From NCBI GenBank assembly GCA_026993805.1, contig JALWSA010000028.1, positions 1 to 64,000 on the forward strand: a stretch of 64,000 bases of DNA, read 5' to 3'. The position numbers and the translations under genes were made by a program. Positions 23,745 to 29,110 of the stretch are shown in pieces; positions within the stretch are counted from its first letter, which is position 1, and each line of letters starts with the position of its first letter. The DNA is from Thermotogaceae bacterium. GTDB lineage: Bacteria; Thermotogota; Thermotogae; Thermotogales; Thermotogaceae. A model generated the notes under the pieces. The model worked only from the letters and a program-made list of their open reading frames with translations. It was not told the DNA's origin and did not search any database.

Positions 23745-25052
23745 GTGAGTCTTTACGAAAAAATAGTTAACAAGAGTGCAAAGGTTGGAGTCATTGGCCT
23801 TGGCTATGTCGGCCTTCCGCTTGCTGTGGAAAAAGCAAAAGCTGGGTACGAAGTCCTCGGATTCGATATTCAGGAAAAGAAGGTAAGAATGGTAAATGAG
23901 GGTAAAAACTACATAGGAGACGTGGTTGATGAGGAACTCGAGGATCTTGTAAAAAAAGGTAGGCTCTCTGCAACTACCGATTTCGATAGAATAGCCGAGT
24001 GTGATGTTGTTGCTATATGTGTTCCTACACCGATAGATGAGCACAAGGTTCCTGACCTTTCTTATGTCGTTAGCACGGGAAGAGAGATAGCAAAGAGGCT
24101 TCACAAGGGTATGCTCATCGTCTTAGAGAGCACGACATATCCGGGAACGACAGAAGAGGTTCTACTTCCAATTTTAGAGAGCACGGGTCTGAAAGTGGGG
24201 AAGGATTTTTACCTTGCTTTCAGTCCTGAGAGGGTGGATCCTGGAAACAAAAGGTTCAAGACAAAGAATACTCCTAAGGTTGTTGGAGGGGTCACCCCCG
24301 AATGCACCAAGCACGCAAAGGCTCTTTATGAAAACGTTTTGGAAGCTCCCGTTTTCACCGTTTCTTCGCCAAAGGCCGCAGAGATGACAAAGATCTTGGA
24401 GAATACCTTCAGAATCGTGAACATAGCTTTGATAAACGAAATGGCCATAGTGGCGTCCAGGATGGGTATAAACATATGGGAGGTTATAGAAGCGGCAGCG
24501 ACAAAACCCTTTGGTTTCATGCCCTTTTATCCTGGGCCTGGTGTTGGAGGGCATTGTATACCCATAGATCCGTTTTATCTGACATATAAAGCGAGAGAAT
24601 ACGATTGGCACACACGGCTCATAGAACTTGCTGGAGAGATAAACGATTTCATGCCCGAGTATGTCGTGCAGAGGCTCCAGGACATACTCAACGACAGAGG
24701 CAAAGCTCTCAATGGATCGAAAATTCTCGTTTTAGGAGTCACATACAAGGGTGATGTTGCAGATCTCAGAGAATCCCCCGCTCTTAAAGTAATAGAAAAT
24801 CTGGAGAAAAAGAAGGCTGTGGTTCTTTATTACGATCCATTGATAGAAAAGTTTCAACACCACGGGAAAGAATATGAGAGGGTAGATTTAACGAAAGATT
24901 TGCTAAATGAAGTGGATGGAGTTGTTATAACGACAGCGCATACTAAGGGTGTGGATTACGAATTCATTTTGGAGCATGCTCCCTTCGTTTATGACACAAA
25001 GAACATTACCAAAGGTATAAGACATCACAGGGATAAGATCTACCTTCTGTGA
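23745..25052 (+). CDS. Nucleotide-sugar dehydrogenase (UDP-glucose / UDP-ManNAc dehydrogenase family)
   Basis: 435 residues. It oxidises the C6 of a UDP-hexose to the uronate using two NAD+. Seen are the NAD motif GLGYVG (18-23), the Lys in EMTKILENTFR (Lys216), the catalytic Cys271 in GPGVGGHCIP, and the C-terminal domain with VTYKGDVADLRESP. The GGHCIPIDPFYL form and VPTPID are typical of the UDP-N-acetyl-mannosamine/glucosamine dehydrogenase branch, but substrate choice cannot be settled by eye. GTG start behind GGGAGGGA. Its product would feed capsule or sheath polysaccharide; no glycosyltransferase is next to it. Confidence 0.92.
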   Translation: MSLYEKIVNKSAKVGVIGLGYVGLPLAVEKAKAGYEVLGFDIQEKKVRMVNEGKNYIGDVVDEELEDLVKKGRLSATTDFDRIAECDVVAICVPTPIDEHKVPDLSYVVSTGREIAKRLHKGMLIVLESTTYPGTTEEVLLPILESTGLKVGKDFYLAFSPERVDPGNKRFKTKNTPKVVGGVTPECTKHAKALYENVLEAPVFTVSSPKAAEMTKILENTFRIVNIALINEMAIVASRMGINIWEVIEAAATKPFGFMPFYPGPGVGGHCIPIDPFYLTYKAREYDWHTRLIELAGEINDFMPEYVVQRLQDILNDRGKALNGSKILVLGVTYKGDVADLRESPALKVIENLEKKKAVVLYYDPLIEKFQHHGKEYERVDLTKDLLNEVDGVVITTAHTKGVDYEFILEHAPFVYDTKNITKGIRHHRDKIYLL

Positions 25053-25087: not shown

Positions 25088-26170
25088 ATGAAGGTCACCG
25101 TTGTCGGGGCTGGTAACGGTGGACAAGCTCTTGCTGCATACTTATCTATGCGGGGTGTTGATGTTGCACTTTACAACAGGTCGCTAAAGAGAATAGCTGC
25201 CATAATGAAGACAAGGACCATAAGGCTCGAAGGAGAGGTTCAGGGTAACTTCAGGATAAGCTTTGCAACGACTGATATGCAAGAAGCAGTAAAAGGAAGA
25301 AAATTGATAATGGTCGTAGTTCCGGCTTTTGCCCATAGGGATATAGCCAGGAAAATTGCTCCCTACATTGAAGACGGTCAGATAATAGTCCTGAACCCAG
25401 GAAGAACAGGAGGTGCAATAGAGTTTTGGAATACGCTTAAAGAACTTGGGGTTAACAAAGAGATAGTCTTAGCTGAGGCACAGACGTTTGTCTTTGCGTC
25501 AAGACTCACAAACCCTGGCGTTGTTAGGATATTCAGGATAAAAAATGCCGTTCCAGTGTCTGCACTTCCCGCTTCTAAGAACGAGGTCCTTGAGAAAACC
25601 CTTTTGGAGATCTTGCCTGAGTTCGAAATAGCCCCTAATACTATATACACGAGCTTCAACAACATAGGGGCAGTCTTCCACCCGGCGGTTCTGCTTTTGA
25701 ACGCAGGAAGGATTGAGTCATCCGCTGGAAAGTTCGAATTTTACCTTGAAGGTATAACTCCTTCCGTTGCGAGGGTTTTGGAAAAGATAGATTCCGAAAG
25801 ATGCACAGTTATGGAAGCTCTTGGAGAGCAGCCCATGACAGCTAAGGAATGGCTCAACTACGCCTACGATGTACAAGGAGAAGACCTTCACGATGCGATA
25901 CACAACAACCCAGGTTACCAGGGAATAATGGCACCACCGAGCATAGCCAACCGTTACATTTTAGAGGATGTTCCAATGAGTCTCGTTCCGATATCTTCTT
26001 TTGGAAAGATGTTGGGAATAGAGACACCTACGATAGATGCGATCATACAAATAGCCTCCGTTATGATGAGGAGGAATTTCAAAGCGGAAGGAAGGACTGT
26101 AAGGACCCTGGGACTCGAGGGTATGAGCGTCGAGCAAATAAGAAAATTCGTCATGGAGGGGAAAGCGTGA
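25088..26170 (+). CDS. NAD(P)-dependent opine / octopine dehydrogenase family protein
   Basis: 360 residues. The Rossmann motif GAGNGGQALAAYLSMRG opens the protein (7-12 GAGNGG). The C-terminal helical domain carries FNNIGAVFHPAVLLLNAGRIE (about 205-225), whose NxxxxxHP pattern is the catalytic signature of octopine/nopaline dehydrogenases, enzymes that join or split an amino acid and a 2-oxo acid at a secondary amine. The ATG at 25088 follows GGGGGTGATGGA; an upstream in-frame ATG at 25049 has no site. Its stop overlaps the start of the cobalamin protein (GTGA), so the two are translationally linked and probably act in one pathway. Confidence 0.87.
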   Translation: MKVTVVGAGNGGQALAAYLSMRGVDVALYNRSLKRIAAIMKTRTIRLEGEVQGNFRISFATTDMQEAVKGRKLIMVVVPAFAHRDIARKIAPYIEDGQIIVLNPGRTGGAIEFWNTLKELGVNKEIVLAEAQTFVFASRLTNPGVVRIFRIKNAVPVSALPASKNEVLEKTLLEILPEFEIAPNTIYTSFNNIGAVFHPAVLLLNAGRIESSAGKFEFYLEGITPSVARVLEKIDSERCTVMEALGEQPMTAKEWLNYAYDVQGEDLHDAIHNNPGYQGIMAPPSIANRYILEDVPMSLVPISSFGKMLGIETPTIDAIIQIASVMMRRNFKAEGRTVRTLGLEGMSVEQIRKFVMEGKA

Positions 26171-27795
26171 AGGTTTTAGGTGCTGCCATTGGGAGCGATG
26201 TCCACACCGCGGGTCTTGTGATCTTCTTGGATGTAGCTAAAAAAGAAGGCTATGAAACTATAAATCTCGGTGGCGCTGTCCCGCTCGAAAAGGTTGTAAG
26301 CGCAATAGAAAAAGAAGATCCCGATATAGTCGCTATAAGTTACAGACTCGGAAAGGAACCGCTAAAAAAGCTCTTAGAAGACTTTTTCAGGATGATAGAC
26401 GAGAAGGGCCTTTCGAACAGGAGATTTTTCTTTGGCGGAACGATAGAAACGGGAGAAGTGGCAAAGAATTTTGGAAGGTTTGATGCCATATTCGATGGCC
26501 GTCAAGAGATAGAAGACATAGTCATGGTTTTGAGGGGAGAGAAGAGAAGGAAAGAGGGAAGCAAACTGCCACCCCAGACGCTCTGGGAGAGGGTGGATTA
26601 CAAAAAACCGTATCCCCTCTTCAGGCATCACATAGGTCTTCCGACGCTTGGAGAGACCATAAAGGAAGTCGAAAAAATGGCAGAATCTGGTCTCTTGGAC
26701 ATCATCTCGATCGCACCGGATCAGAACGCCCAGCAGTACTTCTTCGAACCAGATAAGATGGACCCTGCGCAGGACGGAGCGGGAGGCGCTCCGATAAGGA
26801 GCAGAGAGGATTTCGAAAGGCTGTATCAAGCTTCGCGGAGAGGAAATTATCCTTTGGTCAGGTGTTACGCAGGGACGAGAAATCTGGTCAAGTTTGCAAG
26901 GATGCTCAAAGAGACGATAAACAATGCTTGGGCGGCTATTCCCGTTTTTTGGTACTCCGAGCTCGATAGAAGGAGCGAGAGGCCCTTGGAAGGAGCGATA
27001 AGAGAAAACTTGGAAGCCATCAAATGGAACGCGGAAAATGACGTTCCAGTGGAGATAAACGACGCTCACCAGTGGGGGCTCAGGTTTGCACACGATGCGC
27101 TCGTCGTGGCGGACACATACATAATAACTTATATAGCTAAAAAGCTCGGAGTAAAGCATTATGTGCAGCAGTACATGCTGATGACACCGCATTTCTTGAA
27201 TCCGAAATACGATATTGCCAAAAACATCGCCATGAAAGAGATTGTTAAATCATTTGAAGATGAAAATTTCAGAACCTATACGATGATAAGAGCGGGGCTT
27301 TTGTCATTTCCGGCAGACCCGCACATGGCCATGGGACAGCTCGTCACCGAGATGTTCTACGGTGCATACCTTGAACCAGATATAGTCCATGTCGTTGCGT
27401 ATTGCGAAGCTATACAGAGAGCCAGAGCAAAAGAGATAATCGAGAGCGTTAAGATGACAAGAAGGGCCCTTTCCATAGCAAGATCCGGCGCTCCGGATTA
27501 CATGGCCGATCCGGAAGTTAAAAACCGAGTTCAGGAGCTAATGGAAGAAGCCATGGTGATAGTTCAGGCGATTAGAAAGCTCGGAGAAAGGATGGGATCT
27601 GAGGAACCGCTTCTGGATCCAAAGGTTCTTGCAAGGGCGGTCAGAGAAGGAATACTCGATGCTCCTGGCCTTACCGGAGGCGGTGTTGCACCAGGAAAAG
27701 TGAAGATAGACTTCTCGAAAGGAAGAGTTGATTCTGTAGATGAGGAAGGAAAACTCTTAAGAGAGCGCGAAAGGCTCAAGGAATATTTGAGTTAG
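26167..27795 (+). CDS. Cobalamin-dependent mutase-like protein (B12 domain plus TIM-barrel-like domain)
   Basis: 542 residues. The N-terminal 120 residues form a full B12-binding domain: DVHTAG (11-16) is the DxHxxG signature for base-off/His-on cobalamin, followed by INLGGAVPLEKVV and FFFGGTIE. Residues about 150-540 look like the barrel of class I mutases; the ending REGILDAPGLTGGGVAPGKV parallels the C-terminus of glutamate mutase E, and the middle (EINDAHQWGLRFAHDA) recalls KamD/OraE-type aminomutases. In those enzymes B12 and barrel domains are usually on separate chains. The substrate is unknown; the amino-acid neighbours favour a carbon-skeleton or amino-group rearrangement. The GTG at 26167 is chosen; a longer open frame from 25849 is only the opine gene read in another frame. 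Confidence 0.8.
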   Translation: MKVLGAAIGSDVHTAGLVIFLDVAKKEGYETINLGGAVPLEKVVSAIEKEDPDIVAISYRLGKEPLKKLLEDFFRMIDEKGLSNRRFFFGGTIETGEVAKNFGRFDAIFDGRQEIEDIVMVLRGEKRRKEGSKLPPQTLWERVDYKKPYPLFRHHIGLPTLGETIKEVEKMAESGLLDIISIAPDQNAQQYFFEPDKMDPAQDGAGGAPIRSREDFERLYQASRRGNYPLVRCYAGTRNLVKFARMLKETINNAWAAIPVFWYSELDRRSERPLEGAIRENLEAIKWNAENDVPVEINDAHQWGLRFAHDALVVADTYIITYIAKKLGVKHYVQQYMLMTPHFLNPKYDIAKNIAMKEIVKSFEDENFRTYTMIRAGLLSFPADPHMAMGQLVTEMFYGAYLEPDIVHVVAYCEAIQRARAKEIIESVKMTRRALSIARSGAPDYMADPEVKNRVQELMEEAMVIVQAIRKLGERMGSEEPLLDPKVLARAVREGILDAPGLTGGGVAPGKVKIDFSKGRVDSVDEEGKLLRERERLKEYLS

Positions 27796-27831
27796 AGAAG
27801 TTTGCGAAAAATTTTTCTTTTTCTCACCCCT

Positions 27832-27843
27832 GATGATATCATC
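27832..27843 (+). promoter_or_regulatory. Extended -10 within a palindrome upstream of the aminotransferase
   Basis: GATGATATCATC is a perfect 12-base palindrome that contains TGATATCAT, a TGn extended -10 (TATCAT 27837-27842). It is 39 bases before the aminotransferase ATG. The same TGnTATCAT form recurs at 51962 and 58123. Confidence 0.45.
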
Positions 27844-27880
27844 CTGTGTGTGAAAAATCTCTTTAGATGGAGGTGAAAAG

Positions 27881-29080
27881 ATGGGATTTCTCACTGAAGC
27901 CCATATAAAACTCAACGAGGAATACGGGGCTCATAACTACAAACCGCTTCCGGTCGTTCTGGAAAGAGGAGAAGGGGTCTGGGTTTGGGACGTCGAAGGA
28001 AAGAAGTACATTGACATGCTCTCTTCTTATTCTGCTCTGAATCAGGGTCACAGGCATCCGAAGATAATGAAGGCCCTTTTCGAACAAGCTCAAAGACTTA
28101 CGTTGACCTCCAGAGCATTCCACAACGATGTTCTTGGAAGGTTCTTTAAAAAGATGCACGATGTGACGGGTTATGACAAGACGCTCCCGATGAACACAGG
28201 AGCTGAAGCCGTCGAGACCGCCCTGAAGATCGCAAGGAAGTGGGGATATTACAAGAAAGGCGTTCCAAAGTATGAGGGTGAGATAATCGTAATGGAAAAC
28301 AACTTCCATGGAAGGACGATAACAATCATCACTTTCTCCACTACCGAACAGTACAGGGACGGTTTTGGACCGTTCACACCTGGCTTTAAAGTCGTCAAAT
28401 ACGGTGATATAAAAGCTGTTGAAGAAGCGATAACTGACAAGACGATAGCCGTTTTGGTTGAGCCCATCCAGGGTGAGGGTGGAATCCTCGTTCCGCCGGA
28501 AGGATATCTCAGGGATCTCAGAAAGCTCACGAAAGAGCGAGGAATACTCCTTATATTCGACGAGATCCAGACCGGGCTGGGAAGGACGGGTAAGCTCTTT
28601 GCATACGAATGGGAAGATGCAAGGCCAGATATGCTCATTCTCGGTAAAGCTTTGGGTGGAGGAGTCTATCCGGTTTCGGCCGTTCTCACGAGCAACGATA
28701 TCATGGAAGTCATAAATCCTGGAGACCATGGTTCCACTTTCGGAGGTAACCCACTCGGTGCAGCTGTTGCAATAGCAGCAATAGATGTGATCATAGAAGA
28801 AAAACTTCCGGAGAACGCCCAGAAGATGGGAGAGTATTTCAGAGAGCAGCTCAAAAAGATTGATTCACCGGTTATAAAGGAAGTCAGGGGAAAGGGTTTG
28901 ATGATAGGAGTCCAGACGACGATCCCGGCAAAAGAGATCTGTCTCAAGATGATGGGAGAAGGAGTTCTGGCGTACTACGCACACGAATATGTGGTCAGGT
29001 TCGCGCCGCCGCTCATAATAAAGAAAGAAGAGATAGATTGGGCTTTGGAAAGGATAGAGAAGGTGTTCAAGAGCTTTTAA
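27881..29080 (+). CDS. rocD: Ornithine aminotransferase-like class III aminotransferase
   Basis: 399 residues, PLP enzyme. The close match to ornithine--oxo-acid aminotransferase is seen in DMLSSYSALNQGHRHPKI (45-62), NTGAEAVETALKIARKWGY (105-123), the PLP-ring Asp227 in IFDEIQTGLGRTG and the Schiff-base Lys256 in LGKALGGG. It would convert ornithine and 2-oxoglutarate to glutamate semialdehyde and glutamate. It follows the opine-dehydrogenase and cobalamin genes with its own promoter signal and RBS GGAGGTGA and ends at a strong terminator. Acetylornithine or another omega-amino acid as substrate is possible. Confidence 0.9.
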   Translation: MGFLTEAHIKLNEEYGAHNYKPLPVVLERGEGVWVWDVEGKKYIDMLSSYSALNQGHRHPKIMKALFEQAQRLTLTSRAFHNDVLGRFFKKMHDVTGYDKTLPMNTGAEAVETALKIARKWGYYKKGVPKYEGEIIVMENNFHGRTITIITFSTTEQYRDGFGPFTPGFKVVKYGDIKAVEEAITDKTIAVLVEPIQGEGGILVPPEGYLRDLRKLTKERGILLIFDEIQTGLGRTGKLFAYEWEDARPDMLILGKALGGGVYPVSAVLTSNDIMEVINPGDHGSTFGGNPLGAAVAIAAIDVIIEEKLPENAQKMGEYFREQLKKIDSPVIKEVRGKGLMIGVQTTIPAKEICLKMMGEGVLAYYAHEYVVRFAPPLIIKKEEIDWALERIEKVFKSF

Positions 29081-29088
29081 GCAAACCG

Positions 29089-29110
29089 GGCGGCCTTCAG
29101 GCCGCCTTTT
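29089..29110 (+). terminator. Terminator after the aminotransferase gene
   Basis: GGCGGCC (29089-29095), loop TTCA, GGCCGCC (29100-29106), then TTTT. It abuts the stop codon of the convergent degV-type gene. Confidence 0.85.

Follow-up and report, generated by a model that had tools for sequence, protein, structure and literature searches.

Few carbon-skeleton mutases that depend on adenosylcobalamin (AdoCbl) are known, and each has a distinct reaction of its own. B12 mutases of the GlmE-like fold act mostly in amino-acid fermentation pathways. In GlmE, R66 and R149, together with E171, hold the glycyl part of the substrate, and R100, together with Y177, holds the acrylate part, with Arg100 holding the side-chain carboxylate part (PMC9545868). 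Here, we examined a stretch of 64,000 nucleotides from a Thermotogaceae bacterium (contig JALWSA010000028.1; hereafter the window), in which the gene of an opine-type dehydrogenase (family F1) overlaps the gene of a single-chain B12-dependent protein that is likely a GlmE-like mutase (family F0). We lean towards reading this dehydrogenase-mutase pair as central to a biosynthetic module, so far undescribed, in which an amide-forming ligase takes part.

The F1 gene (25088..26170, + strand; 360 aa) starts with an ATG at 25088, with an alternative in-frame GTG at 25049. Its stop codon and the GTG start codon of the F0 gene (26167..27795, + strand; 542 aa) share the tetranucleotide GTGA. F1 scores 172 bits against Pfam PF02317 (E 8e-51; cut-off 30 bits), the family of CENDH and octopine dehydrogenases, and matches CENDH over its full length (PDB 1bg6, E 2e-78). 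Its His198 and Asp294 align with the catalytic His and Asp of CENDH and are invariant in 26 relatives. By sequence, F1 is an opine-type (CENDH-type) dehydrogenase, for which the joining of an amino acid and a keto acid by reductive condensation is a predicted activity. An earlier reading of the locus, made from the sequence alone, had pointed out both the shared GTGA and the opine-dehydrogenase-like enzyme, and both hold: the coordinates agree, and the family match and the conserved catalytic residues identify the enzyme.

F0 is built of two domains: a B12-binding domain spanning about residues 1-130 (26167..26556, + strand; PF02310, E 6e-12) and a GlmE-type barrel spanning about residues 148-500 (26608..27666, + strand), which was recognised by Foldseek matches to 6h9e_B and 1cb7_B and by hhalign to GlmE. 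The N-terminal B12 domain carries an intact D11-V-H13-T-A-G16 motif (DVHTAG, residues 11-16), followed by SYRL at 58-61 and GG at 90-91. H13 and G16 are invariant in 32 relatives. The Asp of DxHxxG (window site 26197-26214) is replaced by Cys, giving CxHxxG, in 16 of the 32; the alternation, visible in alignments A1 and A5, is unusual for a B12 mutase. The remainder of F0 matches Pfam Met_asp_mut_E with an E of 1.7e-4, under the family cut-off, and sequence matches in the PDB are limited to the B12 domain even with a 32-sequence profile. An AlphaFold2 model built from the 32-relative alignment has a predicted local distance difference test (pLDDT) of 93.3 and a predicted template-modelling (TM) score (pTM) of 0.90. 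Foldseek ranks GlmE first for this model (6h9e_B, E 4e-16, TM 0.58/0.65), followed by OraE, KamD, and methylmalonyl-CoA mutase. The sequence-only reading was therefore right in placing an intact DxHxxG site N-terminal to a GlmE-resembling barrel.

Despite this fold, F0 stands apart from glutamate mutase. It scores 12.1 bits on TIGR01503 against a cut-off of 390.1, which no Thermotogota homologue in 101 genomes reaches. In two profile comparisons, R100 of GlmE is matched by an invariant Gln (Q189 of F0); R66 is matched by His and R149 by Tyr, each with an invariant Arg two residues ahead, in alignments that are low-scoring and uncertain at claw positions other than R100. Glutamate is an unlikely substrate because of the invariant Gln, as far as such weak alignments allow. 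The pyridoxal phosphate (PLP)-binding Lys of OraE and KamE aligns to the invariant Ala24 of F0, which makes PLP-assisted amino migration unlikely and led us to reject a PLP-dependent aminomutase identity; amino-group migration of the OraSE/KamDE kind is not supported at this locus. In scans of domain libraries, F0 had no match to a DNA-binding, methyltransferase, or radical-SAM domain. F0 thus likely represents a separate single-chain B12 family of GlmE-like mutases with a predicted radical rearrangement activity, and the reaction left over for it is most likely a carbon-skeleton rearrangement in which an alpha-amino acid different from glutamate is the substrate. The genome that contains the window encodes a BtuR-type adenosyltransferase, so the organism can probably produce AdoCbl; no PduO-type adenosyltransferase was found in it.

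The distribution of the two families was surveyed in Thermotogota, in part of Bacteroidota, and in one close-relative scan. Of 103 genomes of the heat-loving Thermotogota, 65 encode the mutase (62 of them at full length, two as a long form, and one as a contig-end fragment), and the dehydrogenase occurs in the same 65 and in none of the other 38, without exception. At nearly all loci examined, the two genes are adjacent. Pairwise distances within the two families correlate with an r of 0.73 over 49 copies, a value matched by 0 of 2000 permutations; relatedness of the genomes inflates both this test and that of co-occurrence. The association is far beyond chance, and the stronger argument for the pair is the perfect match over 38 genera combined with its occurrence in Bacteroidota. 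The Bacteroidota copies, which were found by searching the order and phylum of one Bacteroidales relative, are scattered and lie in unrelated genome settings. The F0 family was absent among the viral contigs and plasmids searched. At one locus (L060:5910-9829), a longer, 634-residue form of the mutase lies beside the usual Thermotogota-type dehydrogenase and ligase, a swap which suggests that the short and long forms are interchangeable and serve one pathway. We found no description of the pair in the open-licence literature, and an earlier account elsewhere is possible; the pair is a real, phylum-wide two-gene core that is apparently undescribed.

A third component recurs beside this core. 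Clustering of the neighbourhoods of 43 loci placed a gene for a D-Ala-D-Ala ligase (Ddl)-like ATP-grasp protein (F2, ~310 residues) upstream or downstream of the pair in 26. F2 has the ATP-grasp fold and matches Dala_Dala_lig_C, and its scores fall under the Ddl family cut-offs (at best 166 bits at L046, and 161.5 bits for the copy in the window's genome, against 243). That copy is unlinked to the pair (G000:C41:34223-35149), and the same genome has its own, separate Ddl candidate (G000:C15). Across 101 genomes, 54 contain both mutase and ligase, 10 the mutase only, two the ligase only, and 35 neither, the two ligase-only genomes being fragmented assemblies; at genus level, the corresponding numbers are 25, 2, 1, and 10. 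Elsewhere, the ligase is of another kind. An AsnB-like protein that lacks the Cys required for glutamine hydrolysis adjoins the pair at L055, L056, and L067, and in the first two of these it lies near aspartate-family (threonine) biosynthesis genes. In three Bacteroidota loci (L169, L170, and L171), the gene order is dehydrogenase, mutase, AsnB-like, with the N-terminal Cys missing in two of the three AsnB-like proteins. In four Bacteroidales loci (L158, L160, L161, and L162), the mutase and dehydrogenase are accompanied by ATP-grasp proteins of other types, one of which has a PylC-like_N match under the cut-off. These four lie in apparent surface-polysaccharide clusters with genes for glycosyltransferases, flippases, and a polysaccharide deacetylase or DegT-type protein, names that come partly from reading the sequences by eye and partly from Pfam scans. 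Judged by sequence family, three distinct kinds of amide-forming enzyme accompany the same pair: Ddl-like ATP-grasp, other ATP-grasp, and AsnB-like.

Some further observations concern these ligases. At L055 (317-15639), two sets of AsnB-like, dehydrogenase, and mutase genes flank genes for homoserine dehydrogenase/aspartokinase, threonine synthase, and homoserine kinase. In the window's family (L107:9176-11995, on G000:C41, and L109-L113), a gene for a hydantoinase-like amidohydrolase lies downstream of F2, and an APS-kinase-like P-loop gene often separates the two. At L124 (6880-7827) and L125 (5423-6370), a second, more divergent F2 copy has sugar ABC permease genes on one side and glycine cleavage system genes on the other. 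Plasmid-borne relatives of the dehydrogenase and of the ATP-grasp protein do not stand together in the two plasmid regions opened.

The sequence-only reading had counted a third gene of the window, an aminotransferase (RocD; 27881..29080, + strand), as a member of the pathway. F1, F0, and RocD do form a head-to-tail array on the + strand, with 85 bases between the F0 end and the aminotransferase start, and a hairpin (GGCGGCCTTCAGGCCGCC, 29089-29106) follows 3' of the aminotransferase, reported on the - strand by the consensus scan. The enzyme is an ordinary ornithine aminotransferase (TIGR01885, 564 bits against a cut-off of 378; PDB 3ruy, E 1e-146). At E <= 1e-5, no relative of it turned up in the other 43 neighbourhoods, which include some short contigs. 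RocD adjoins the pair in the window alone, so we reject it as a pathway member and judge it a chance neighbour, and the ornithine route drawn through it is not sustained. What survives of the original three-gene proposal is a likely undescribed amino-acid pathway based on the GlmE-like mutase and the opine-type dehydrogenase, which co-occur strongly, whereas the aminotransferase rarely joins them. Directly upstream of F1 lies a UDP-glucose/ManNAc-type sugar dehydrogenase gene (23745..25052, + strand; PF03721/PF00984/PF03720), which is also the upstream neighbour at L002 and L004. In the window's family it may belong to the same operon as the pair, and its position is compatible with a glycan role, without demonstrating one. 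No Rfam RNA, riboswitches included, reached the gathering threshold in the window.

We used the recurrent enzyme classes to outline how the proposed module may work; its substrate, product, and step order are inferred, and its function rests on context and fold. First, the AdoCbl-dependent mutase would act on an alpha-amino acid, though not on glutamate, and rearrange its carbon skeleton. Using NAD(P)(H), the opine-type dehydrogenase would next make or oxidise a C-N bond in this amino acid, yielding an opine or a cyclic imine. Finally, an ATP-dependent ligase, which by lineage is a Ddl-like ATP-grasp, another ATP-grasp, or an AsnB-like enzyme, would, as expected from its class, form an amide between this product and a second molecule. 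In several Bacteroidales, that molecule is probably a surface glycan. O-antigens are known to contain amide-linked opines, among them alanopine and N-epsilon-(1-carboxyethyl)lysine (PMC10609480), a precedent that fits the Bacteroidales setting of the pair.

Other explanations have to be weighed against this module. In a fermentative or catabolic route, the mutase would rearrange ornithine, lysine, or glutamate, the dehydrogenase would oxidise the product for energy, and RocD would feed in ornithine. Such pathways are the usual home of the fold, RocD adjoins the pair in the window, and a gene for an amino-acid-binding ABC transporter follows the trio at L005/L042. The position of RocD is, however, particular to the window, F0 lacks the PLP lysine, several Bacteroidales copies lie within glycan clusters, and the recurrent partner class consumes ATP for an amide bond. 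Biosynthesis and conjugation are favoured over the breakdown of ornithine or glutamate because of this recurrent ligase, and we consider the fermentative route unlikely. With GlmE as the nearest fold, F0 might instead be an alternative glutamate mutase that converts glutamate to 3-methylaspartate for the dehydrogenase and ligase, giving, for example, 3-methylasparagine with the AsnB-like enzyme. The AsnB-like partner at L055/L056/L067 and the aspartate-family genes beside the first two would suit this scheme, but the alignment of R100 with an invariant Gln, of R66 with His, and of R149 with Tyr, and scores that in all Thermotogota homologues stay below the TIGR01503 cut-off, make it quite improbable. 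Most doubtful, in our judgement, is a role for the B12 protein other than that of a mutase, be it as a methyltransferase of the corrinoid type or in B12-dependent sensing or regulation. Its isolated B12 domain resembles methyltransferase corrinoid proteins, and Cys often replaces the Asp of DxHxxG; its barrel nevertheless matches GlmE, OraE, KamD, and methylmalonyl-CoA mutase, in that order, and neither a DNA-binding nor a methyltransferase domain was matched.

Several points weigh against the biosynthetic module as well. The pair occurs without a ligase nearby at L159, in the close Bacteroidales loci L007/L008, and in about eight genomes of one Thermotogota family (f9), and two genomes (G101/G102) have no Ddl-like ligase anywhere. 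Judging from the aligned motifs, the Cys in place of Asp in half of the F0 homologues could mean that B12 binding differs among them. The glycan role depends on the Bacteroidales, since the neighbours of the pair in Thermotogota are mostly unrelated housekeeping genes.

The significance of the pair lies in a separate single-chain mutase family present in about two-thirds of the Thermotogota genomes examined and scattered in Bacteroidota. Because a dehydrogenase accompanies it without fail and an amide-forming ligase recurs with it, its reaction and product are accessible by assay. If Bacteroidota indeed decorate surface polysaccharides by way of the module, their surface chemistry would be coupled to the supply of B12.

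The components of the module can each be set beside a known system. F2 shares the ATP-grasp fold and Dala_Dala_lig_C with the D-Ala-D-Ala ligase family; it differs in scoring below the Ddl cut-offs, in an N-terminal Ddl region that is unmatched, and in coexisting with a separate Ddl candidate in the genome. F1 resembles the CENDH and octopine dehydrogenases (PF02317) along its whole length, including the catalytic His and Asp, but its gene overlaps that of a B12 mutase. As a whole, the module recalls the pyrrolysine enzymes PylB-PylC-PylD, which comprise a carbon-skeleton mutase acting on an amino acid, an ATP-dependent amide ligase, and an NAD-dependent dehydrogenase (PMC11467909). The same three kinds of step recur in outline, by analogy and not homology: a B12 mutase stands in place of the radical-SAM PylB and an opine-type enzyme in place of PylD, and the ligase and dehydrogenase are nearest to Ddl and CENDH rather than to PylC and PylD. 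A B12-driven counterpart of pyrrolysine synthesis is conceivable, in which the mutase would yield a branched (e.g., methylornithine-like) amino acid, the ligase would couple it through an amide, and the dehydrogenase would close or reduce an imine, with surface glycans of Bacteroidota carrying the new amino acid and Thermotogota putting it to some use; in this full form, we find it rather unlikely. Like OraSE and KamDE, the next-best Foldseek matches, F0 combines a B12 domain with a related barrel; it differs in its invariant Ala at the position of the PLP Lys and in domain order, the B12 domain of OraE being C-terminal. With GlmES, it shares a B12 domain and a barrel of the GlmE fold. Whereas GlmES keeps its small B12 subunit separate, F0 carries the B12 domain at the front of a single chain, has ~17% identity, scores under the family cut-off, shows an invariant Gln in place of the claw Arg100, and is always paired with an opine-type dehydrogenase.

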